A stretch of DNA of 22,106 bases from a virus: positions 1-22,106 of the IMG/VR virus record IMGVR_UViG_3300021373_001570; one strand, given 5' to 3'. Position 1 is the first letter of the stretch. Each line of letters opens with the position of its first letter. The notes below the pieces were generated by a model, which saw nothing but the letters and a program-made list of their open reading frames with translations, was not told where the DNA came from and searched no databases. Positions 3,452-22,106 of this stretch are shown here, piece after piece. The position numbers and the translations under genes were made by a program.

Positions 3452-3480
3452 AGTATAACGTCTTTTATAACAGAGGTCAA
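3452..3480 (-). promoter_or_regulatory. Sigma70-type promoter for gp47-gp46 operon
   Basis: On the minus strand TTGACC (3480-3475) is followed by exactly 17 bases and then TATACT (3457-3452). Each box is one base from the consensus and the spacing is ideal. The -35 box starts four bases after the gp55 stop codon. The expected start of transcription is near 3445, giving a leader of about 20 bases with the GGAGA site before the gp47 TTG. This resembles an early or middle promoter read by the host polymerase. It is predicted from sequence only. Confidence 0.75.
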
Positions 3481-4302: not shown

Positions 4303-4325
4303 TTGGGCTCCTAAATGTTATATAC

Positions 4326-4354
4326 ATTATAATATACTCTGTTTAAAAAGTCAA
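4326..4354 (-). promoter_or_regulatory. Sigma70-type promoter for gp55
   Basis: Minus-strand TTGACT (4354-4349), 17-base spacer, then TATAAT (4331-4326), an exact -10 consensus. The expected start is near 4319, leaving a leader of about 17 bases that contains AGGAG (4312-4308) before the gp55 ATG at 4302. The first base of the -35 box coincides with the first base of a late-type motif on the other strand. Predicted from sequence only. Confidence 0.8.
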
Positions 4355-4361
4355 CTAAATA
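4354..4361 (+). promoter_or_regulatory. Candidate late promoter element before gp48-like gene
   Basis: ACTAAATA matches six of eight bases of the T4 late element TATAAATA, and seven of eight bases of the motif before gp6. It ends 19 bases before the ATG at 4381, with AGGAGAG (4369-4375) between. A start of transcription six or so bases downstream would leave a very short leader. In such AT-rich DNA the match alone is weak. The support comes from its position in the only gap at the head of the plus-strand block. Confidence 0.45.
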
Positions 4362-4380
4362 ATAGCATAGGAGAGTAATT

Positions 4381-5151
4381 ATGAGCTTTTTAAAAAATTT
4401 AGGCAACAAAGTTGTTAACAAGGCAAAGCAAAATCTTATAGACGAAGTATCAGATACAAACTTTGGTCGTGTGTTAAGAACATTTAATCTTTTGCCAGGA
4501 GCCAATCCAAATAATGACGGATCGTTCACTGCTGGATCTTGGGATACAGGTACTAATGCAGATTGGCGTGTTAGGATTTCATTACCTCCTGGAGGTGCAT
4601 ATGCTAGTAGTTCGTTGTTAGCGCCGCTGAAAGAAACACAAAATTCTATGGTGTTTCCGTATACGCCGCAAGTATTTATTACTCATAGTGCAAATTATAA
4701 TGCACTACAGCCTACACATAGTAATTATCCCTTCCACATTTACACTAGTTCACAAGTGGATCAGTTTACTATCACAGGTGAATTTACAGTTGAAAATTCT
4801 AAAGAAGCAGAATATTGGGTTGCAGCAGTGCATTTTTTAAAATCAGTTACAAAAATGGCATATGGGGAAAGTGCTAACAAAGGTTCTCCACCGCCTGTTG
4901 TAAAACTAAATGGATACGGGGACTATGTTTTTAATCAAGTACCTGTTGTTGTACAAAACTTTAACGTAACACTTCCGTCAGATGTAGATTATATTCCAGC
5001 AGGCGTAGGGTTTAACGGATCTTATGCGCCAGCAAGGTCAGAAATATCTGTTGCACTAATGCCACAATACAGCAGAGATAAAGTTAACAAATTTAGTCTT
5101 GATAAGTTTGTAAGCGGTGGATACATTCTAGGCGGAGATGGATATTTATAA
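4381..5151 (+). CDS. gp48: Probable baseplate tail-tube cap/initiator protein (gp48-like)
   Basis: A 256-residue protein heading the baseplate cluster. After a short basic N-terminal helix (MSFLKNLGNKVVNKAKQ) come DWRVRISLPPGG (61-72), MVFPYTPQ (90-97), THSANYNALQPTHSNYPFHI (101-120), a tube-like beta stretch FTITGEFTVEN (129-139) and EAEYWVAAVHFLKSVTKMAYG (142-162). I associate this combination with the gp48 family of marine T4-like phages. T4 gp48 sits on the baseplate hub and, with gp54, starts tail-tube polymerisation. The next gene is gp53, and the stop overlaps its ATG (TAATG). The protein is shorter than T4 gp48 (about 364), and gp54 shares a related tube fold, so a gp54-type label is the main alternative. 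AGGAGAG precedes the ATG by about five bases. Confidence 0.72.
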   Translation: MSFLKNLGNKVVNKAKQNLIDEVSDTNFGRVLRTFNLLPGANPNNDGSFTAGSWDTGTNADWRVRISLPPGGAYASSSLLAPLKETQNSMVFPYTPQVFITHSANYNALQPTHSNYPFHIYTSSQVDQFTITGEFTVENSKEAEYWVAAVHFLKSVTKMAYGESANKGSPPPVVKLNGYGDYVFNQVPVVVQNFNVTLPSDVDYIPAGVGFNGSYAPARSEISVALMPQYSRDKVNKFSLDKFVSGGYILGGDGYL

Positions 5152-10711: not shown

Positions 10712-10737
10712 GATAAAGTACGCACTTAATCAAAGCG

Positions 10738-10745
10738 AATAAATA
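10738..10745 (+). promoter_or_regulatory. Candidate late promoter element before gp6
   Basis: AATAAATA, one base from the T4 late element TATAAATA, lies in the 57-base gap between gp25 and gp6. It ends 23 bases before the gp6 ATG, with GAGGA (10755-10759) as ribosome binding site. The only other such motif in a real gap lies before the gp48-like gene at a similar distance. A second internal late promoter for gp6 and the giant gene would make sense, but chance matches are common in DNA this AT-rich. Confidence 0.5.
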
Positions 10746-10768: not shown

Positions 10769-13700
10769 ATGTCATCCACAGATAGACAAAATAGATTACT
10801 ACTTGCAGAAGACTGGAAAAAAGTTTATCAATCCTTTCGAAATGCAGATTTTAAGTCTTATGATTTTGATAATCTAAGACGTACAATGATCTCTTATTTA
10901 AGAGAAAATTACCCAGAAGATTTTAACGACTATATTGAATCAAGTGAATATCTAGCATTAATAGATATGATTGCATTTTTAGGTCAAAATATTGCTTTCC
11001 GTATTGACTTAAATGCAAGAGAAAACTTCTTAGAACTAGCAGAACGCCGTGAAAGTGTACTACGTTTAGCAAGATTGCTTTCCTATAATCCTAAACGTAA
11101 TCAAGCATCAAACGGCCTTTTAAAAATTGAAGCAGTTAGTACAACAGAAGAAATTACTGACAGCAACGGATTAAATTTATCAGAACAAACAATCCAATGG
11201 AACGATCCTAGCAATCCAGATTGGTACGAACAATTTATTCGTGTAATGAATGCTGCATTGCCAGTAAATGGAACATTCGGTCGTCCTGTTAAAACAGAAA
11301 CAATTAGTGGAATTCCTACTGAACAGTATCGTATGAATTCTACAAACACAGAAGTTCCTGTGTATAGTTTTTCAAAAACAGTTGACGGTAAAACTGTTGC
11401 ATTCGAAGTAGTTAGTACAGACATTACAGATACGGACATTGTTGAAGAAGCTCCGTTCCCTGGTAATAATTTTGCTTTTCTTTACAGGGATGATGGCCGA
11501 GGCGTAGCAAGCTCTAACTCCGGTTTCTTTACTCACTTTAGACAAGGAACTATGGACCAAGGACAGTTTAACGTAGACAGCCCGTCTACAAGCCAAGTAG
11601 TTGCAGTTGATGCACGTAATGTAAACAACACCGACATATGGTTATATAAATTAGATAGCTTAGGCAACGAGCAAGAACTTTGGACTAAAGTTGAAGCAGT
11701 AGAAGGCAACAATGTTATCTATAATAGTTTAAACAAAGGTATTCGAAATATCTATAGTGTGCTAACACGCATTGAAGATAGAATTAGTTTAATTTTTGCC
11801 GACGGTGTGTTTGGCAATTTACCTCAAGGTAATTTCCGTGTGTATTATAGAACAAGTAAAAATCAAAGATTAATTGTTTCACCTGATAATTTAAGAGGAA
11901 TTGCAGTTCGTATTCCTTATGTGTCTAGAGCTGGTACAGCAGAAACAATTACCATTACACTTGAACTAAAAAACACTGTTGATAATGCAACTATTTCTGA
12001 AACAAATGCAAGTATTAAGAAAAATGCTCCTGCTTCATATTATACACAAAACAGAATGGTAACAGCCGAAGATTATCAAATTGGACCATTAACAACAAGC
12101 CAAGAAATTGTAAAAGCAAAAAGCGTAAACAGAACATCTAGCGGTATAAGTAGAAACTTTGACTTAGTCGATGCAACTGGCAAATATTCTACTACAAATT
12201 TATTTGGAACAGATGGTGCAGTTTATAAAAATTACCTATCAACAAAAACAAGTTTTGATTTCGAAACACTGACAGATATTGAAGGACAAATTGTAAACAC
12301 AATCGAACCAATTTTATCCAGTATTAAAGTAAGAAACTATTATTATGACCAATTTCCTAAATTACTAGTAGAAGATTTAGGTGCTACTTGGGAACAGTTT
12401 ACAGCAGATACAAACAACTTTACAGGTAGAATGACTAATTCTGCAGGTGTTCTAATTAAAGTAGGCACATTTACTGGTTCAAATATGAAGTTTGTAAAAC
12501 CAAATTCTTTACTTAAATTTATTCCACCAGAAGGGTTTCATTTCCTTAACGGTAAGTTAGAATCAGGTGTACCTGATTTTAGAGGAGGTACTAGTTACAA
12601 ATGGGTTAAAGTTATAAGTGTTGTAAGAGACGGCACAGAAATACAAGATGATGGTTCAGGACCAATTGTATTCAATGACAGTATTCCAACAGGTTCTAGA
12701 CTTACAGAAATTAGAACTGCTTTACCGTCTTCTCTTACAGACGATGTAAAAGCTCAACTTACTGCACAAATATTTTCATATAGAACATTTGGTTTAAGAT
12801 TTTCTAGGAATGACGGTGAGTGGAGACTTATTACCGAAAATAACTTATCTGCAAACAGTGAGTTTAGTACAGGTAAAACAGGCGATACAACTAACCAGCA
12901 ACTAGATGCAAGTTGGCTATTAAAGTTTAATACAGACGGCGAAAAATATACTATTACGTATCGTGCTATGAGATATGTTTTTGAAAGTGATAAAGACATT
13001 AGATTTTATTACGACAGTAGTGACAAAATTTACAATAATAAAACCGGTAAAATTGTTAAAGACAAAATTAATATTTTAAATATTAATAATAAACCTAATT
13101 CAGAATATCCATTTAATATAGATTATCTATGGGAGATAGTTGAAGAGTACAGAGATGCTGAAGGTTATGTAGATTCAAAAAAAATACAAGTTAGTTTCTT
13201 TGATGACGATGACGACGGTGTTGTTGATAATCCAGAAATATTTGATGATATTGTAGATGAAGAAACTTCGCCACTAACTAAGTTAGTATTTTTACAAAAA
13301 AGCACAACAACTGACGGTGTAGAAGACTACAAATATGTAGATAGAAATACTATTTTTAGAGATCCTACACAACTTATTTTACAGTCAGTGTCTAATAGAG
13401 CACCGTTAAGCACATACCAAGACGGAGATCTTCTTTATTATCTAGAAGAAGATATCTTTGAAGTTTTTAATGCTGCAACTACTACGTTAACTATCTCGAC
13501 AAATTATAAAGCAGCAGTTGGACGAGACGGATTAAAATTCCAGTATGTACACGCTGCTGATCAAAACAGTAGAATTGATCCTAGTGCAAGTAATATTATT
13601 GATACTTATTTGTTGACTAGAGGATATGACACATCGTTTAGACAATGGTTAGATGGAAATCTTGAAAATAAACCATTGCCGCCTAGCAGCGATAACTTGT

Positions 13701-14248
13701 TTATTTCTTATGGTGCCACATTAAACAAGATTAAATCACTTAGTGATGAAATCATTTATCATCCAGTTAAGTACAAAGTATTATTTGGTAACAAGGCTAA
13801 AGAAGATTTGCAAGCAACATTTAAAATTGTAAAAAACCCGGGACTAGTATTAAACGACAACGAAATTAAATCAGGTGTAGTCAGTGCAATCAATAAATTT
13901 TTTGCACTTGATAACTGGGATTTTGGAGAAAAGTTTTACTTTTCTGAATTATCAAATTACGTAATGAGTTCAATGTCTCCGAATCTTGTTACTTTTGTAA
14001 TTGTTCCTGTGCAAGACAATCAAGCATATGGTTCGTTACAAGAAATTAAGTCAGAGTCAGATGAAATTTTTATCAGTGGTGCAACTGTTGAAGATATAGA
14101 AATAATTGACGCAATTACTGCTAGTAGATTAAAGTCAAGTGGTGCTGTAGTAACAAGCATTACTTCGACATCTACAGGCATACAAAGCAGCACAAACGTA
14201 AATTCAAGCACAACGACCGGATCAACTAGTGGAGGCCTTAGCTACTAA
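10769..14248 (+). CDS. gp6: gp6 baseplate wedge subunit
   Basis: A 1159-residue protein, far longer than T4 gp6 (660). The N-terminus is the typical gp6 / gpJ-family start: ADFKSYDFDNLRRTMISYLR (26-45), then DYIESSEYLALIDMIAFLGQ, FRIDLNARENFLELAERRES and LARLLSYNPKR. A core motif QNRMVTAEDYQIGPL lies at about 430-444. A typical C-terminal part starts near residue 990 (YHPVKYKVLFG, FALDNWDFGEKFYFSELSNY). The middle, about residues 540-970, holds extra sequence, including an EF-hand-like loop at 812-823. gp6 forms the heterodimer ring that links the six wedges and drives the switch of the baseplate on contact. The last 35 or so residues are low-complexity Ser/Thr/Gly. The stop overlaps the next ATG (TAATG). 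Confidence 0.93.
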   Translation: MSSTDRQNRLLLAEDWKKVYQSFRNADFKSYDFDNLRRTMISYLRENYPEDFNDYIESSEYLALIDMIAFLGQNIAFRIDLNARENFLELAERRESVLRLARLLSYNPKRNQASNGLLKIEAVSTTEEITDSNGLNLSEQTIQWNDPSNPDWYEQFIRVMNAALPVNGTFGRPVKTETISGIPTEQYRMNSTNTEVPVYSFSKTVDGKTVAFEVVSTDITDTDIVEEAPFPGNNFAFLYRDDGRGVASSNSGFFTHFRQGTMDQGQFNVDSPSTSQVVAVDARNVNNTDIWLYKLDSLGNEQELWTKVEAVEGNNVIYNSLNKGIRNIYSVLTRIEDRISLIFADGVFGNLPQGNFRVYYRTSKNQRLIVSPDNLRGIAVRIPYVSRAGTAETITITLELKNTVDNATISETNASIKKNAPASYYTQNRMVTAEDYQIGPLTTSQEIVKAKSVNRTSSGISRNFDLVDATGKYSTTNLFGTDGAVYKNYLSTKTSFDFETLTDIEGQIVNTIEPILSSIKVRNYYYDQFPKLLVEDLGATWEQFTADTNNFTGRMTNSAGVLIKVGTFTGSNMKFVKPNSLLKFIPPEGFHFLNGKLESGVPDFRGGTSYKWVKVISVVRDGTEIQDDGSGPIVFNDSIPTGSRLTEIRTALPSSLTDDVKAQLTAQIFSYRTFGLRFSRNDGEWRLITENNLSANSEFSTGKTGDTTNQQLDASWLLKFNTDGEKYTITYRAMRYVFESDKDIRFYYDSSDKIYNNKTGKIVKDKINILNINNKPNSEYPFNIDYLWEIVEEYRDAEGYVDSKKIQVSFFDDDDDGVVDNPEIFDDIVDEETSPLTKLVFLQKSTTTDGVEDYKYVDRNTIFRDPTQLILQSVSNRAPLSTYQDGDLLYYLEEDIFEVFNAATTTLTISTNYKAAVGRDGLKFQYVHAADQNSRIDPSASNIIDTYLLTRGYDTSFRQWLDGNLENKPLPPSSDNLFISYGATLNKIKSLSDEIIYHPVKYKVLFGNKAKEDLQATFKIVKNPGLVLNDNEIKSGVVSAINKFFALDNWDFGEKFYFSELSNYVMSSMSPNLVTFVIVPVQDNQAYGSLQEIKSESDEIFISGATVEDIEIIDAITASRLKSSGAVVTSITSTSTGIQSSTNVNSSTTTGSTSGGLSY

Positions 14249-17200
14249 TGGCATATAATGACGATCAAAACCCTACTAATTTGCCAGCAGGGAAACCTGA
14301 AAAAAGAAAAAGTGCAGACCATTTACCTAGGTATTTTAGAACACAGGTTAATAACAAATTTCTTTCAAGCACAATTGACCAGTTAATACAACCTGGCATT
14401 GCAGAAAAGTTAAATGGTTACTTTGGTCAAAAAGAAGCCAAAGGTTATCAGAAAGACGACTTTTATGTTGGCGATGTTTCTAAAAGCAGAGAAGATTATC
14501 AGTTTGAACCGTCGGTTGTAATCAAAGACGATCTTAATAATATAAACTTTTATGCAGACTACAATGATTATATTAATCAGTTACGTTCTCTCGGTTCGAG
14601 TGTAAAAGATCATAGTTTGCTTAATAGACAAGAGTATTATGCTTGGAATCCAAATATTGATTGGGATAAGTTTGTAAACTTCAGAGAATACTATTGGTTA
14701 CCTAATGGACCTCGCCCTGTGCAAATTGCTGGCGAAAAGGATAATGTAGTAAAAACTATTAAAGTAACAGCAGTAGATAACGGAGAACACTATGGCTATG
14801 TTTTTACTCCAGACGGACTGACACAAAATCCTGTATTAACTTTATTCAGAGGCATTAAGTATATTTTTGAAATTGACGCACCTGGTAATCCGTTATCGTT
14901 TAGAACTAGAAAAGATACAGCACCTATTTTTAAACCTAATGTACTCTACTTAGTTGGCGATAAAGTAAATTATCAAGGCGGAATCTACATTTGTACAAAT
15001 GAACACGTTGCAAATGATACACTAAATTTAGATTTCTGGGACTTAGATACAACATTTAATTTAAAAAATTCAGTTAGTCAACAAAGTGTAGAAAGCGGTA
15101 CAATTGAAGTAGAACTAGCAGCAGATACTCCTGACTTAATTTATTATATGTCAGACAACGACTTATTTGCAAGTGGAACTATTAATGTACTTGATATAGT
15201 TGAAGCAACATCAATAGATGTTGAACAAGAAATTTTAGGAACAAAGACTTATACAAGTGAATCGGGTGTAGAATTATCTAACGGTATGAAGCTAGAATTT
15301 GTAGGCAAAGTTACTCCGGAAAAATATGGAGAAGGATTTTGGTACGTTGAAGGAGTAGGAGACAAAATTGTCCTTATGTCGGAGACAGATTTAAATGTTC
15401 CTAGTTCTTATACAACAGATTTAGCAGTCGATTTTGATGTAGAAGGATTTGACGAACTACCATTTTCTGAAGCTATAGGTTATCCTGTTAATAAAGATTA
15501 TATTACTATTAACAGAGCTAGCCAAGACGGTAATTTATGGTCAAAGTATAATAGATGGTTTCATAAAACAGTAATTGAAAAAAGTGCAGAAATTAACAAG
15601 CAGCCAATTGATCTTGATCAAACTTCTCGTGCAACGAGACCTATTATAGAATTTGAGGCAAATTTAAAACTATTTAATTATGGTACACAAATAAAGAAAA
15701 GTGTAGATGTTGTAGATAATTTTACTACAGATGTTTTTAGTACAGTTGAAGGATCGCAGGGTTATAACATTGACGATGTTGATTTAACAAATGGAATGAG
15801 AGTGCTGTTTACAGCAGATACTGATCCATTAGTTACTGGAAAAATATTTGAAGTAGAATTTATTAATTTTAGAAACACACGACAGATTACTTTAAAAGAA
15901 ACCAACGACACAAAACCTTTAGAAAATGAAGTTTTACTTTGTAAACAAGGCACAATATTCAAAGGTAATATGCTTTGGTTTGATGGAAGCGTTTGGAAAA
16001 CTGCACAACAAAAAACAACACTAAATCAGCAGCCTTTGTTTGATGCGTTCGACGTTAGGGGTTATAGTTATTCTGATAAAGAATATTTTGATTCATCGAC
16101 CTTTACTGGTACAGAGTTATTTTCGTATAAAAGAGGAAATGCTAATACTGATGTAGAATTAGGATTTCCATTATCCTATAGAAGTATTGAAAACGTAGGT
16201 GATATTGTATTTAAGTGTAATTTTTTACAAGATACAGTTTCATATGCAATTGATAATCAATTACCTAGGTCTGTAAATATCAGTGAAGGATATATTAGAA
16301 AATATACAGACAGAAATACGTGGGAAGTTTTAAATGGTTGGACTACTGCAAAACGGTTAAGTTCACAACCTGTAATTAGACAATATGTAAATGATAACAC
16401 AAGAACTTTTTATACAGTAGATGTATATGAAAATAGTGCATTATTAGATGACCTGTGGCTACGTGTTTATTTGAATAACAGTTTAAAGTTTAAAGATATA
16501 GATTATACAACTTCACAGGATGCTAATTCTAATCTTACAATTAAATTTAACAGGCCATTGGAAATCGGCGACAATATTATTATTAAAACAAATTCTGTTG
16601 CTGAAAAAACTGAAAACGGCAAATATGAGATAGCAAGTAATCTTGAAAAAAATCCTCTCAATAAAAATATTAACGAATTTACATTAGGCGAAGTTAACGA
16701 TCACGTAAGTACTATTGTAGAGGAACTTGATAATTTTGCTGGCGCATTCCCTGGTACAAGTAATTTAAGAGATTTAGGTCCACTTTCTCAATATGGTAAG
16801 AGAATTGTAAAACATTCGGCACCTCTTAATATTCCTATGTATCACATTGTAAATAGAGAAGCAAATGTTATTAAGGCTCTTAAATTTGCAAGAAGAGAAT
16901 ACGGAAAATTTAAAAGATCATTTATACAGATCGCTACAAGTTTAGGATTTAGTGGACCTGTAAAAAAACACGTTGACGCAATTCTTAACGAAATGGCAAA
17001 AGATAAAGTCAGCACTATGCCTTATTACTTTAGTGATATGGTTCCATTCACTGGTGCAGTTCGCAATACTACAGAAATATTTGATCCCGATAATAATTTC
17101 TTTGCACTTAACCGAGTGTTTGATATTGACAGTTTAAGTGATACTGCGGTTCAAGTATATCTTAATGAAACGCAATTAGTTTATGGAAAAGATTATACAT

Positions 17201-20200
17201 TTAACAATCAAGGATTTGTAATTGTAACAGCTACAAAGGCACAAGGAGATGTCCTAGATATTTACGAATATGAAACTACTAATGGTTCTTATATTCCCCC
17301 TACTCCTACTAAACTAGGATTATATCCTAAGTATGAGCCACAACTAATGACGGACGATACTTACTTAGAACCACAAACAGTAATTCAAGGACACGACGGC
17401 AGTATTACTATTGCATACGGAGACTTCCGTGATGACTTATTATTAGAATTAGAAAAAAGAATTTTCAACAATATAAAAATAAAATATGATCCTAAGGTGT
17501 TTTGTATTGAAGACTATGTACCAGGATATTCTAGAGAAACAGGATTAACAGAACAGCAAATAAATGACAGTACAATTAGTGACTTTGTGCAGTGGTTGCA
17601 ACTTGTTGATGATGATTATACCAAGAATCCTTCTTACCTAAGAGAAAATCAGTTTACCTTTAACCACACAGGTATGGTAGATGTAGGTGAGAAACCTGTA
17701 CACGGTTATTGGCGAGCAGTTTACAAATATGCATACGATACAGATCGTCCGCATACTCATCCTTGGGAAATGCTAGGATTTACAATCAAGCCAAGTTGGT
17801 GGGACGAGCAATACGGCGAAGCTCCGTATACTAGTAATAACTTGTTAATGTGGGAAGATATCGAAGCAGGTATGATTAGAGACCCTAGCACGTCTGGTGT
17901 CATTTATAAAAAGTATGCTCGTAAATTTATTACAACTCACATTCCTGTTGACGAAGACGGCAATCTGGTAAGTCCTATTTTAAGTAGTTTTATAAAATCT
18001 TACAACACAACAGATCTCGATGCAAATTTTGAGTTTGGTGATCACAGCCCGGTTGAAACAGCGTGGCGTAGAAGTTCTGAATATCCATTTTCATTAATCA
18101 CATCTATTGTTTTAAATCAGCCAGCCAGGGCGTTTGCTACAATATTTGATAGACAAAGACAATTTAGAGGAACGTCTAATCAAATTAATTATGCAAAGAA
18201 CAATACTAATATAAACTTAGACGATATTGTTTTTCCTAATAGTGTAAATGAAGAAACAAGAATTTATTCAGCAGGATTAATTAATTACGTTTTTGATTAT
18301 ATTTCTGCAAGTGTAGAATTACCATTTAAAGAATATAAAAATAACTTAAAAAGCATTAATAATTTAATTAGTTTTAAAGTTGGAGGATATACTAACAAAG
18401 ATAAATTTAAATTAATTCTTGATAGTAGAACGCCAACAAATAAAGGAAACGTTTTTATTCCTGAAGAAAATTATAAGATTGCATTAAACACAAGTGCGCC
18501 TGTTAAAAATATTACTTATAGTGGTGTAATTGTAGAAAAACAAAGTAACGGATTTATTGTAAAAGGGTACGATAGAGAAACACCATACTTTAATATAAAT
18601 CGTGCTATTCCTCTTCAAAATGATCCTGTGATTAGAATTGGCGGAATAACTGCAAGTTTTGTTAATTGGGATCAAGAAAAAACTTATACTACTGGATTAA
18701 TAGTTGAACACCAAAACTCTTATTACAGAGTATTAGAATCACATAAAAGTGGTACACAGTTTGATGAAAGTAAATTTGCTAAAATTCCTGAGCTACCAAC
18801 AGAAGGCGGCCGCGAAGCGTATTTTAGAAAAGCCTTTAAAAATAATGTAGAAAGAGTTCCTTACGGAACAGTATTAGATTCTATACAAGATGTAGTTGAT
18901 TTCTTATTATCTTATGGACATTATTTAGAAGCAGAAGGATTTGTATTTGATTATTTTTCTCCTGAAAGTGAATTTATATCTAATTGGGAAACAAGTGCAA
19001 AAGAATTTATGTTCTGGAGCACACAAAACTGGGGCGCAGGCAGTGTTATTACTCTAAGTCCTGGAGCATTTAAAATTAAGTTCAAGTCAGAATACGCTAT
19101 AGTTGACGACATTTATGATACGTTCTATGGTTATAGTATTTTAAAAGCAGACGGAAAAAAACTAAAACCGCAAAACGTTTCACTTACCAGAGAAAATCCA
19201 CAAGAGTTTTGTGTAAGACCTAAAGCAACTGAAGATGGAATTTTTGCTGTTAGATTATCCCTAGTTCAAAAAGAACACGTTGTTATTATTGACAACAAAA
19301 CAGTGTTCGGTGACATCATATACGATCAAGAACCAGGATACAGACAGCAACGTATCAAAGTCTTAGGCTATAGAACAGGTAACTGGGACGGTAGTTTAAA
19401 TATTCCTGGCTTTATATTTGATAATGCAACAATAAGTGAATGGGAACCGTGGAAGGATTATGCAATCGGCGAGATTGTAAAATATAAAGAATTTTATTAT
19501 AGTTCTATTAACAAAGTACCAGGTACAGAAAACTTTGAATCTCGTAATTGGTCATTGTTAAAAGACTCGCCTGAGATGAAACTTATACCAAACTTTGAGT
19601 ATAAAGTAAATCAGTTTGCAGATTTTTATGATCTAGATACTGACAATTTTGATACAGAACAGCAAAAATTTGCACAGCATTTAATCGGATATCAAAATAG
19701 AGATTATCTAGCAAATATTATTAATGATGATGTAAGTCAGTATAAATTTTATCAAGGTATGATCCAAGATAAAGGTACAAAGAATGCACTTACAAAATTG
19801 TTTGATGTTCTAGGTAGTGCTGACAAAGATAGTTTAGAGTTTTATGAAGAGTGGGCAATTAAAGCAGGACAGTATGGAGCAGCTGAAGGATTTGACGAAG
19901 TTGAGTTTATATTAGACGAATCTAAATTTAAATTACAACCACAAAGTGTTGAACTAGTTAATAGTACAACTGGTGACGAAACTGATTTAGTTTATAGAAT
20001 AAAACCATTTGAAGTTTTCTTACGTCCAGAAGGATATGACCATAAGCCGTTTCCTACAAAATATGTCAAAGAAACATTTATAAAAAACAGCGGTTATGTC
20101 AATAACGAAGATGTGCAGTTTGTAATTGACGAGTATGATTCGATAGCTAATATAGAATATTCTGAAATACGTCATAAAGATTTTGTCTGGGTAGGAAATG

Positions 20201-22106
20201 TAGGACAAGATTGGAATGTGTACACATTCCTTCAAGAAGAAATTAGATTAGAAGCAGTACTAGAGGACGGTGATACTAGACAACTGCAATTTGCTACTAT
20301 TCCTAATGGTTTAACAGTAGGCGAAATAATTGGCGTTGAATATAAAAATGACGAAGGTCAAGATATTGCAATCTTTACTAAGGTTACAAAAATCCTCAAT
20401 AACATAGTAACAATTGATAACGCAGAAATTAGCGAAAGTGCAACTGTTACTAATGATATTATATCTAAATTTGTAAGTGTAAGGGTAGATGGTTATGAAG
20501 CTGCTAGTGATCTTATACAAAATTACAAGCAAGGTATTTCTAGACTTTGGATTGATGAAGATGCTAGTGAACGTTGGAGAGTAATAGAAACAAGAGAAGG
20601 TTTTAATCAACACCAAGTAATAGAAAACTCAGATACCGGAGTTGATCAAGGATACGGATATGCACTAGCTGCCAACGAAAATAATACATTGTTGTGTATA
20701 GGCGCACCTAATAACGGTGATGGTAAAGTTTTTGTATTTGTAAGAGCCGGAAGTTCGGGATCATTCCAGCTTAACCAAGTTGTTGAACCTTTAGATAATC
20801 TTGCAGATCCTGGACAAGAATTTGGCAGAAGTATTGCAGTTTCAACAGACGGCAGATACTTAATTGTTGGCTCTCCTAAAGCATCAAATGTGAAAAGCAC
20901 ATATAAGAATGATTATGTAGAAGAGTCTAATTATGATTCGGGGGCTATTGTTGAATATAAAAATAATTTGTGGAAAGCAAATAAAGATATCGACGGTGCA
21001 GTAAATGCAATTACGTTTGGTAGCTTTGAATCAGTTCCGCAAATTATGGTCGATCTTTTACAAACAGAAGAAGATGATAATGTTAGACCTGTTTTATTAA
21101 CAGGAGATTATCCATTCACAAGCGACGAAGTACAGTCTGATTTCTTTACTGACCACTATATTATTAAAGCACCAAAAGATATGTATGAAGGTTCAGGAAT
21201 TGGTGATAGTATTAAATTAAAATGGAACACACTAACATATGCTAATCAAAATAGTGTAACACCTGTTGTTGTAACACCGTTTGGTGGTGAAATTCCAGAA
21301 CTTAGTGAAACCTTTATTACAGGTAAACACGTTATTGCAGAAAAAATTGACAGCATTTTATACGTTGAAAATTCTAATACTATTCCTTTAGTAGGACAAA
21401 TAGTTGAAACACTTACAGGTTTTGGTACAGTTGCGTATACATTTAATTTTGGTGCTAAAGCAACAGTTTATATTAAGGATCAAAACGGTACATTTGGTAC
21501 TGTAGGTTCATTAACGACTAGCATTGGTGAGTTCGTAGGCGAATACGTAACAGTAGCACCTGATGATACTCAAGCAAATGCAGACGACTATTGGGGAGGC
21601 TATTGGAGAATTAATACAGGGACATATATAGTTCCTAATTCAACTAATGCAGATGTAGCAAGAGGTTTAGTATTTGTTGATGTGACACCAACAACAGCAG
21701 TAGGAGGGGATCAAGATCGTTTTTACTACAACAACCTTGATTATCCTAACAGCATAATTAATAGTAGAGACACATCTTATAACCAGCTTATAACATTAAG
21801 TTATCGAGGAAGTCCAGGACCGCTTGGAGTAGTTGGTGATTTTGAATCTCCGTTATTTGTATTTAAAGCACCTAAGCCGTTAACTGATGAGCTAAGTTCT
21901 GAAATTATTACAGAAGGCGACCCTGCTAACCCTACACTAAATGTGTTTTATAATTCAATGCCGCCGTTCCTTACAGGAGATTTAGAAGATAGAGATCTAA
22001 CAAAGATCGGGCTATCACCAGGACAGGTCAACAAGCAACATACAGTATACGACATATGGGACGGATGGATTGATTTTAGAATTACAAAGCAATTTGCAGG
22101 TGATCC
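14248..22106 (+). CDS. Giant baseplate/virion structural protein in the gp7 position (3' end outside window)
   Basis: My own translation from ATG at 14248 stays open for 2619 codons to the window edge, so the protein exceeds 2600 residues. T4 gp7, the wedge initiator that follows gp6, has about 1030. Near the N-terminus are LPRYFRTQVNNKFL (26-39) and AWNPNIDWDKFVNFREYYWL (132-151), and HPWEMLGFTIKPSWW lies at about 1171-1185. I recall these from huge structural proteins after gp6 in marine T4-like phages, sometimes labelled VrlC-like or gp7-like. Four modules resembling chitin/cellulose-binding CBM5/12 repeats occur near residues 234, 1474, 1735 and 2229. Two FG-GAP-like blades lie at about 2132-2211. 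The ATG shares a base with the gp6 stop, and GGAGG lies 12 bases upstream. A wedge or peripheral baseplate role, perhaps with surface binding, is inference. Confidence 0.8.
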   Translation, partial: MAYNDDQNPTNLPAGKPEKRKSADHLPRYFRTQVNNKFLSSTIDQLIQPGIAEKLNGYFGQKEAKGYQKDDFYVGDVSKSREDYQFEPSVVIKDDLNNINFYADYNDYINQLRSLGSSVKDHSLLNRQEYYAWNPNIDWDKFVNFREYYWLPNGPRPVQIAGEKDNVVKTIKVTAVDNGEHYGYVFTPDGLTQNPVLTLFRGIKYIFEIDAPGNPLSFRTRKDTAPIFKPNVLYLVGDKVNYQGGIYICTNEHVANDTLNLDFWDLDTTFNLKNSVSQQSVESGTIEVELAADTPDLIYYMSDNDLFASGTINVLDIVEATSIDVEQEILGTKTYTSESGVELSNGMKLEFVGKVTPEKYGEGFWYVEGVGDKIVLMSETDLNVPSSYTTDLAVDFDVEGFDELPFSEAIGYPVNKDYITINRASQDGNLWSKYNRWFHKTVIEKSAEINKQPIDLDQTSRATRPIIEFEANLKLFNYGTQIKKSVDVVDNFTTDVFSTVEGSQGYNIDDVDLTNGMRVLFTADTDPLVTGKIFEVEFINFRNTRQITLKETNDTKPLENEVLLCKQGTIFKGNMLWFDGSVWKTAQQKTTLNQQPLFDAFDVRGYSYSDKEYFDSSTFTGTELFSYKRGNANTDVELGFPLSYRSIENVGDIVFKCNFLQDTVSYAIDNQLPRSVNISEGYIRKYTDRNTWEVLNGWTTAKRLSSQPVIRQYVNDNTRTFYTVDVYENSALLDDLWLRVYLNNSLKFKDIDYTTSQDANSNLTIKFNRPLEIGDNIIIKTNSVAEKTENGKYEIASNLEKNPLNKNINEFTLGEVNDHVSTIVEELDNFAGAFPGTSNLRDLGPLSQYGKRIVKHSAPLNIPMYHIVNREANVIKALKFARREYGKFKRSFIQIATSLGFSGPVKKHVDAILNEMAKDKVSTMPYYFSDMVPFTGAVRNTTEIFDPDNNFFALNRVFDIDSLSDTAVQVYLNETQLVYGKDYTFNNQGFVIVTATKAQGDVLDIYEYETTNGSYIPPTPTKLGLYPKYEPQLMTDDTYLEPQTVIQGHDGSITIAYGDFRDDLLLELEKRIFNNIKIKYDPKVFCIEDYVPGYSRETGLTEQQINDSTISDFVQWLQLVDDDYTKNPSYLRENQFTFNHTGMVDVGEKPVHGYWRAVYKYAYDTDRPHTHPWEMLGFTIKPSWWDEQYGEAPYTSNNLLMWEDIEAGMIRDPSTSGVIYKKYARKFITTHIPVDEDGNLVSPILSSFIKSYNTTDLDANFEFGDHSPVETAWRRSSEYPFSLITSIVLNQPARAFATIFDRQRQFRGTSNQINYAKNNTNINLDDIVFPNSVNEETRIYSAGLINYVFDYISASVELPFKEYKNNLKSINNLISFKVGGYTNKDKFKLILDSRTPTNKGNVFIPEENYKIALNTSAPVKNITYSGVIVEKQSNGFIVKGYDRETPYFNINRAIPLQNDPVIRIGGITASFVNWDQEKTYTTGLIVEHQNSYYRVLESHKSGTQFDESKFAKIPELPTEGGREAYFRKAFKNNVERVPYGTVLDSIQDVVDFLLSYGHYLEAEGFVFDYFSPESEFISNWETSAKEFMFWSTQNWGAGSVITLSPGAFKIKFKSEYAIVDDIYDTFYGYSILKADGKKLKPQNVSLTRENPQEFCVRPKATEDGIFAVRLSLVQKEHVVIIDNKTVFGDIIYDQEPGYRQQRIKVLGYRTGNWDGSLNIPGFIFDNATISEWEPWKDYAIGEIVKYKEFYYSSINKVPGTENFESRNWSLLKDSPEMKLIPNFEYKVNQFADFYDLDTDNFDTEQQKFAQHLIGYQNRDYLANIINDDVSQYKFYQGMIQDKGTKNALTKLFDVLGSADKDSLEFYEEWAIKAGQYGAAEGFDEVEFILDESKFKLQPQSVELVNSTTGDETDLVYRIKPFEVFLRPEGYDHKPFPTKYVKETFIKNSGYVNNEDVQFVIDEYDSIANIEYSEIRHKDFVWVGNVGQDWNVYTFLQEEIRLEAVLEDGDTRQLQFATIPNGLTVGEIIGVEYKNDEGQDIAIFTKVTKILNNIVTIDNAEISESATVTNDIISKFVSVRVDGYEAASDLIQNYKQGISRLWIDEDASERWRVIETREGFNQHQVIENSDTGVDQGYGYALAANENNTLLCIGAPNNGDGKVFVFVRAGSSGSFQLNQVVEPLDNLADPGQEFGRSIAVSTDGRYLIVGSPKASNVKSTYKNDYVEESNYDSGAIVEYKNNLWKANKDIDGAVNAITFGSFESVPQIMVDLLQTEEDDNVRPVLLTGDYPFTSDEVQSDFFTDHYIIKAPKDMYEGSGIGDSIKLKWNTLTYANQNSVTPVVVTPFGGEIPELSETFITGKHVIAEKIDSILYVENSNTIPLVGQIVETLTGFGTVAYTFNFGAKATVYIKDQNGTFGTVGSLTTSIGEFVGEYVTVAPDDTQANADDYWGGYWRINTGTYIVPNSTNADVARGLVFVDVTPTTAVGGDQDRFYYNNLDYPNSIINSRDTSYNQLITLSYRGSPGPLGVVGDFESPLFVFKAPKPLTDELSSEIITEGDPANPTLNVFYNSMPPFLTGDLEDRDLTKIGLSPGQVNKQHTVYDIWDGWIDFRITKQFAGD
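14947..15045 (+). repeat. CBM5/12-like module 1 in giant protein
   Basis: Residues 234-266 fit Y-x2-G-x2-V-x-[YH] followed by an aromatic near position 14 and a closing aromatic about 30 residues in: YLVGDKVNYQGGIYICT ... FWDL. Confidence 0.55.
18667..18786 (+). repeat. CBM5/12-like module 2 in giant protein
   Basis: Residues 1474-1513: a leading Trp, then YTTGLIVEHQNSYYRVL, and a closing FAKI. It has the same spacing as the other three modules. Confidence 0.55.
19450..19560 (+). repeat. CBM5/12-like module 3 in giant protein
   Basis: Residues 1735-1771: a leading Trp, then YAIGEIVKYKEFYYSSI, GTENFESRNWSLL. This is the most typical of the four, with Trp-x-x-Tyr at the front and Trp-x-Leu at the end. 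Confidence 0.65.
20641..20880 (+). repeat. Two FG-GAP-like beta-propeller blades in giant protein
   Basis: Residues about 2132-2211 hold two copies of the pattern [YF]G-x-[SA]-[IL]-A followed about 10 residues later by [CV]-[IG]-[AS]-P: GYGYALAANENNTLLCIGAP with a following GKVFVFV strand, then FGRSIAVSTDGRYLIVGSP. This is the integrin-alpha type FG-GAP signature. Only two blades are obvious here. Confidence 0.6.
20932..21027 (+). repeat. CBM5/12-like module 4 in giant protein
   Basis: Residues 2229-2260: YDSGAIVEYKNNLWKAN, closing with a Phe pair. It follows directly on the FG-GAP-like blades. The closing Trp of the family is replaced by Phe. Confidence 0.5.

Follow-up and report, generated by a model that had tools for sequence, protein, structure and literature searches.

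An early gp55 promoter nested in a facing late promoter: a possible self-limiting late-sigma switch among relatives of jumbo phages

Organization of the gp55 locus

The DNA analysed here (the window) is the 22,106-base IMG/VR viral fragment IMGVR_UViG_3300021373_001570. Its leftward block encodes segE-type GIY-YIG, gp46-like, gp47-like and gp55-like proteins, and its rightward block encodes baseplate and virion proteins. As the first-pass annotation described, the divergent blocks are separated by a 78-base gap (4303-4380) between the gp55-like gene and ORF 4381-5151 (Table 1). The latter encodes a virion structural protein and is the first gene of its block, a gene order shared with PA5oct, RaK2, 121Q, CBB and XaC1. 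The wider arrangement, gp46-gp47-gp55 facing the virion gene and gp53, is retained in the same five phages and in Vibrio 2.275. The closest named relatives of the gp55-like protein belong to jumbo phages: PA5oct/MIJ3 (~46% identity), Atu_ph07 (42%) and the RaK2, 121Q and CBB groups (36-39%).

The identification of the leftward gene as gp55 was borne out, as gp55-like, by profile matches to PHROG 12791 (E 1.4e-78) and to T4 gp55 (7d7c chain F, hmmsearch, E 3.4e-8). The T4 gp55 core lies in the C-terminal half of the protein, which carries about 120 extra residues. The AlphaFold model (pLDDT 88) superimposes on 7d7c_F with a Z score of 14.2 over 96 residues and an rmsd of 1.7. Both the sequence and the fold of this sigma-2-like core place the protein in the gp55 late sigma family. 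In fold searches the matches were filled by the sigma-2 core, so the ~120 extra residues were barely probed.

Table 1. Coordinates of the features discussed, in the window unless another record is named
Feature	Position	Strand	Basis or remark
gp55-like late sigma factor gene, 272 aa	3484..4302	-	PHROG 12791 E 1.4e-78; also PHROG 234
gp55 promoter -10 box TATAAT	4326..4331	-	(nearly) invariant in 57 relatives
gp55 promoter -35 box TTGACT, 17-base spacer; G(-36) at 4355	4349..4354	-	sequence scan
gp47 sigma70-type promoter TTGACC-N17-TATACT, without late element (comparison site)	3452..3480	-	sequence scan
Late promoter -10-like box ACTAAATA, positions -13 to -6	4354..4361	+	predicted transcript start 4367
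Late promoter upstream element, TACGYASTTAAT-type (TACTCTGTTTAA at 4335-4346)	4330..4346	+	column conservation; inside sigma70 spacer
Shine-Dalgarno GGAG of late baseplate-block gene	4370..4373	+	sequence
Virion structural protein gene, first of rightward baseplate/virion block	4381..5151	+	PHROG 12050 E 3.5e-46
Second bipartite late promoter TACGCACTTAAT-N9-TAAATA before ORF 10769-14248	10719..10745	+	PWM 16.9 bits; no divergent gene
gp55 leader hairpin in related phages	CBB L134:2426-2476; 121Q L133:2417-2476; Munch L218:523-576; Hallingskeid L220:520-573; XaC1 L136:2425-2476

Two promoters on opposite strands of the gap

A near-perfect minus-strand sigma70 promoter had been noted for gp55 (TTGACT-N17-TATAAT, 4354-4326). 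It is present, matches the consensus at 11/12 positions in the window and 12/12 in several relatives, and ranks in the top two sigma70 matches over the 20 kb scanned; the other begins within the start of an unrelated gene. Its transcript is predicted to start near 4319, seven bases beyond the -10 box. TTGACA-N17-TATAAT-type sites also precede gp47 and other leftward genes, which makes the early promoter class genuine, and the gp55 promoter, with the TTGACA-N16-18-TATAAT layout before an early-type gene, belongs to it.

On the plus strand, the late-like element does begin on the first base of the -35 box (4354), as had been pointed out: ACTAAATA spans 4354-4361, with its TAAATA core at 4356-4361 preceded by an Aeh1-type AC prefix. 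The core lies 25 bases before the start of the virion structural gene, with the Shine-Dalgarno sequence in between. Taking A4361 as position -6, by analogy with T4 late promoters, puts the late start at 4367 and gives a 14-nt leader.

TAAATA is a recurrent word in this group of phages. Counted over the window and five long contigs of relatives, with ORFs called in this analysis, it is the top-enriched hexamer 8-45 bases upstream of called ORFs (74 genes against 7.3 expected, 10-fold). The enrichment is strand-specific (74 on the forward strand vs 17 on the reverse), and the positions peak 21-35 bases ahead of start codons. Since it is the most enriched upstream word, with a 10-fold and strand-specific excess, we regard TAAATA as a genuine T4-type late box. 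The usual prefix in relatives is GA, AA or TA, mostly giving (G/A/T)ATAAATA, and the AC prefix of the gp55-locus box is uncommon at other late boxes. The longer word CTAAATA, which is the late consensus of Aeh1 beginning at -12 (PMC1524935), occurs twice in the window against 7.6 expected and is therefore not a common word.

The gp55-gap box is thus a T4-type late promoter in its TATAAATA-like sequence, its TAAATA core and its leader distance to a virion gene. In T4-type late promoters the sequence ahead of the -10-like box is not conserved, whereas TACGYASTTAAT is conserved here and at ORF 10769. Because this element is conserved nine bases upstream, we call the promoter a variant of the T4 type. 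The two promoters are nested on opposite strands of a ~36-bp stretch (about 4326-4361). There is good support for the two promoters described in the first-pass annotation, for their overlap and for the conservation of that overlap. The extent of the overlap was understated there, as the late upstream element runs across the sigma70 spacer as far as the -10 box.

Conservation of the junction among marine relatives

Relatives were fetched by gp55 protein rather than by promoter sequence and hence were not selected for the motif. The non-redundant marine set comprises 66 rows including the window (<95% gp55 nucleotide identity). An alignment of this gap had been proposed as a check on the overlap: both elements occur in 66/66 rows and overlap or abut in 64/66. 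Relatives that keep the sigma70 boxes without a late-type box, which had been named as the counter-case, were not seen, the box being retained in 66/66. The junction reads GTCAACTAAATA in 57/66 rows and GTCAATAAATA in 7/66; GTCAA and TAAATA are separated by a single base in 57 rows, directly adjoin in 7 and lie 56-57 bases apart in the other 2. Invariance of the twelve GTCAACTAAATA columns across the 57 follows from how that set was defined, and the informative part is that 57/66 have the motif and 7 more are one base shorter.

The leaders on either side vary far more on the gp55 gene tree. The sigma70 spacer is 17 in 65/66 rows, whereas the gp55 leader measures 24-35 bases, and TAAATA and the Shine-Dalgarno sequence are 4-17 bases apart. 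The least numbers of changes required are 37 for the leader, 31 for the interval between late box and Shine-Dalgarno, 1 for the sigma70 spacer and about 6 for the junction. The shared promoter DNA is therefore conserved among relatives as an overlapping divergent pair, given its presence in 64/66 rows and the ~6 junction changes, with the caveat that elements which abut leave no neutral base between them, so that most deletions would harm one of the two while insertions would not. Insertions between the -35 and late boxes are confined to one lineage among the 66 rows.

The junction is specific to gp55. Among 139 sigma70-like sites in ten records, it is present at the gp55 promoter in 10/10 contigs and at 0/129 other sites, and exact GTCAACTAAATA occurs a single time in each searched marine record having the motif. 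At a frequency of 0.00053 per base per strand in relatives, any one -35 box should have about 0.0016 TAAATA boxes within 0-2 bases of it; chance thus fails to account for a junction seen in 64/66 non-redundant relatives.

Arguably, the overlap is 2 bp instead of 1, with C4355 in both elements. This base may serve as the early G(-36) and as the late C(-12), because the early promoters of RB49, RB43 and Aeh1 favour GTTGAC at -36 to -31 and the late consensus of Aeh1 is CTAAATA (PMC1524935). In the two relatives whose promoters are separated (L023 and L072; -35 and late box 56-57 bp apart), the late boxes read TATAAATA. The form taken by a freed late box suggests that the AC prefix could be a compromise forced by base sharing.

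An upstream element belonging to the late promoter

The TACGYASTTAAT element sits nine bases before TAAATA, and TAC-nnn-(G/C)TTAA(T) is conserved in the sigma70 spacer of the 57 relatives. A second bipartite late promoter precedes ORF 10769 in the window. Its homologues in 39 relatives carry AATTAAGTACGCACTTwAy-N9-TAAATA, with no divergent gene to account for the conservation. In L023/L072, the only relatives with separated promoters, TGCGYASTTAAT-N9-TAAATA lies beside the late gene, and the element is gone from the spacer of the now separate sigma70 promoter. Since it is present at the ORF 10769 promoter and moved with the late box in L023/L072, the element is part of the late promoter. The same grounds, together with the lack of the element at other early promoters, rule out reading the conserved spacer as a component of the early promoter.

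The distribution of the element was examined with a matrix built from gp55-locus sites and applied to other TAAATA boxes followed by a Shine-Dalgarno sequence and a start, leaving out the gp55 locus. Matches at exactly nine bases were found for 9/148 boxes, against at most 2 at any other spacing, and these 9 mostly precede ORF 10769 homologues. A role as a genome-wide late-promoter feature is unsupported by 9/148 sites, mostly from one gene family. The strict palindrome form is rare, and some copies are nearly palindromic. The freshwater clade has ATAAAA-N7-TTTAT at a similar position. That the ~120-residue extra part of the gp55-like protein reads the element is only a guess. The window site at 10719-10745 and its homologues, AATTAAGTACGCACTTAAT-N9-TAAATA, carry the element free of any facing promoter and so suit its study in isolation.

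The pairing in more distant phages

In enterobacterial-type jumbo phages (RaK2, KP13-7, Muenster, 121Q, Munch, fENko-Kae01, CBB, GAP32, BF, Hallingskeid and XaC1), the gp55 -35 box is only 3-7 bases from TAAATA, in gaps of 115-134 bp with gp55 leaders of 47-57 nt. Their -10 boxes are of TATAAT or TATACT type, and their -35 boxes differ (TTGAAT, GGGACA, TGGAAC, TGAAAC). Space does not force the pairing in these phages, because leaders of 47-57 nt leave room to separate the promoters. The close pairing is retained while the boxes change and space allows separation. The gp55 mRNA leaders of this group also fold into a hairpin that carries A(A/C)GGAU in its loop and has a covarying stem (AAAAC/GUUUU, GGUAC/GUACC, GGGAC/GUCUC, AGAAC/GUUCU); fold energies alone are not unusual. 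We take this hairpin to resemble a CsrA/RsmA site. The window's short gp55 leader has no room for it.

Wider spacings are found elsewhere. The gp55 -35 box is 23 bp from the late box in PA5oct and mostly 36 bp from TAAATA in freshwater relatives (L137-L179), exactly 36 in 18 distinct sequences. Polymerase footprints probably overlap or touch even at these spacings. Direct overlap is nevertheless not essential, as PA5oct, the freshwater relatives and one marine lineage manage without it. Conserved TTTC, ATAAAA and TTTAT blocks lie between the -35 box and TAAATA in the freshwater gap, and represent another late promoter form with upstream conservation. Across the whole PA5oct genome, TAAATA boxes stand before genes with GA as the commonest prefix; the enrichment is mild by a crude filter (42 vs 24 on the other strand). 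In Atu_ph07, whose gp55 is 42% identical, GTCAACTAAATA is present again; the gp55 -35/-10 pair is not convincing there, with an unclear -10. No clear pairing was found at gp55 of Sinorhizobium phage Phosso, where the neighbouring gene is another one and the gap is 215 bp. Stenotrophomonas phage RAS14 (L224), from another phage group, has a shorter gp55 (209 aa) opposite a large, divergently transcribed gene. TTGACA-N16-TATCAT is present there, its -35 box 47 bases from a TAAATA; the divergent placing of gp55 may therefore extend beyond this family.

A composite switch and its alternatives

We propose that the gap acts as a composite switch, in which a near-consensus sigma70 early promoter of gp55 faces a late promoter of T4 type that carries an additional upstream element. 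The late promoter would be read by RNA polymerase carrying gp55. A polymerase footprint covers roughly -55 to +20, and the two starts lie only about 48 bp apart; we infer from these distances that the two complexes could not bind together. Early in infection, host polymerase on the strong gp55 promoter would make gp55 and help to silence the baseplate operon. Later, gp55, with clamp and coactivator as in T4, would fill the late promoter and block the -35 box, spacer and -10 box of the gp55 promoter. As a consequence, gp55 synthesis would fall and late genes would rise. Judged from footprint sizes and promoter anatomy, the self-limiting switch of the first-pass annotation, in which gp55-polymerase limits gp55, is plausible. 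It would form one half of the proposal, since mutual exclusion would also run the other way and keep the baseplate operon off early, a point beyond that annotation. The T4 clamp and gp33 occupy the DNA that precedes the late promoter (PMC7892883); in the window this DNA is the gp55 promoter, which the same position would cover. Activation by a clamp is uncertain in the jumbo-phage group, because the CBB study found neither a gp33 nor a gp45 homologue in that phage (PMC5259590).

We consider mutual exclusion by this composite switch the probable explanation of the locus. Simple compaction is an unlikely one: two independent promoters, active at different times, would be squeezed into a minimal gap, the overlap being a by-product of genome economy. 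The marine-clade gap does equal almost exactly two promoters plus leaders, the abutting pair would need no added selection to be conserved, and PA5oct, the freshwater relatives and L023/L072 do without overlap. Compaction is at odds, however, with the enterobacterial-type phages, which have room in both gap and leader and still keep 3-7 bases between the boxes. It also sits poorly with the single lineage of insertions among the 66 rows, although insertions are harmless to both boxes and the adjacent intervals underwent 37 and 31 length changes. A quite improbable reading is that a separate phage regulator binds the partly palindromic element (AASTACGYASTT type, centred near -29 of the late start), activating the late promoter from a class II or MotA position and, from its place in the sigma70 spacer, repressing gp55. 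The near-dyad symmetry (TTAAGT-N4-ACTTAA before ORF 10769; AACTACGTAGTT at gp55 in several relatives), the fixed nine-base spacing at both promoters, the joint movement with the late box in L023/L072 and the similarly placed freshwater element would all suit such a protein, as would the absence of conservation at the -35 position of T4 late promoters (PMC2988020). Against it, no candidate protein was identified, the element is clear at few late promoters, its copy in the window is degenerate, and the ~120-residue insertion in the gp55-like protein could read it instead.

Finally, upstream bases can strengthen sigma70 promoters, and TATTTAG lies immediately upstream of the -35 box, so that it might be a conserved UP-like extension of the gp55 promoter with no late promoter present. 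This is highly improbable. As a general early-promoter extension TATTTAG is ruled out by its absence from all 129 other sigma70-like sites, while TAAATA is a genome-wide, strand-specific upstream word, is placed with a Shine-Dalgarno sequence ahead of the divergent gene, and stayed with that gene in the separated L023/L072. Returning to the composite switch, its fullest form is advanced more tentatively, at somewhat short of an even chance: a dyad-like late promoter would lie antiparallel over the whole early gp55 promoter, the late sigma would limit itself without a repressor, and close divergent pairing would be ancestral to a broad jumbo-phage group.

Relation to known systems

At lambda PR/PRM, a dedicated repressor or activator decides which promoter is used. 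There, as in pLS20 according to the accessible portion of its description (PMC4207663), opposing promoters share DNA and use of one hinders the other. The pLS20 pair likewise depends on a dedicated repressor or activator, whereas here two RNA polymerase forms would compete and, unlike in either system, one promoter makes the sigma factor needed by the other. Compared with gp55-dependent T4-type late promoters (TATAAATA), the window has the same -10-like box, its ACTAAATA form corresponding to the CTAAATA consensus of Aeh1 (PMC1524935), but here it is opposed to the late sigma gene's own promoter and shares bases with it. T4 late promoters also lack conservation at -35 (PMC2988020), whereas two late promoters here share a conserved element nine bases ahead of TAAATA. 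Promoter predictions for CBB and GAP32 (PMC5259590) place an ATAAATA late motif ahead of structural genes and give the gp55-like CBB_244 a separate promoter immediately before it, in the same gene order; the accessible portion of that report lists the promoter classes separately and does not note their tight divergent pairing (5 bases apart, as measured here).

The literature searched yielded nothing relevant on autoregulation of gp55 or on late promoters in divergent arrangement, although this does not prove that none exists; it also yielded no gp55-type sigma gene paired with a facing late promoter across jumbo phages and no late promoter with a conserved upstream element. Overlapping divergent promoters are known; the conserved pairing of late sigma gene and late promoter, and the upstream element, appear to be new. 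To our knowledge, little is known, except in T4, about how phages control the amount and timing of a gp55-type late sigma. A promoter pair with shared bases would give direct, repressor-free control of the level and timing of the late sigma. The close pairing occurs in cultured relatives (RaK2, 121Q and CBB-like phages) and is thus amenable to testing. These findings also suggest that some late promoters in the jumbo-phage group carry sequence information missing from those of T4, perhaps read by the extra part of gp55.

Other genes in the window

Two ORFs reach the window edges. On the minus strand, the SegE-type GIY-YIG endonuclease gene (1-423), near the gp46-like gene, is cut off. On the plus strand, ORF 14248-22104 encodes 2619 aa, with a CBM_5_12 chitin-binding-type module near residue 1473 (E 1.2e-12) and weak FG-GAP repeats; its product is probably a tail or adhesion protein.
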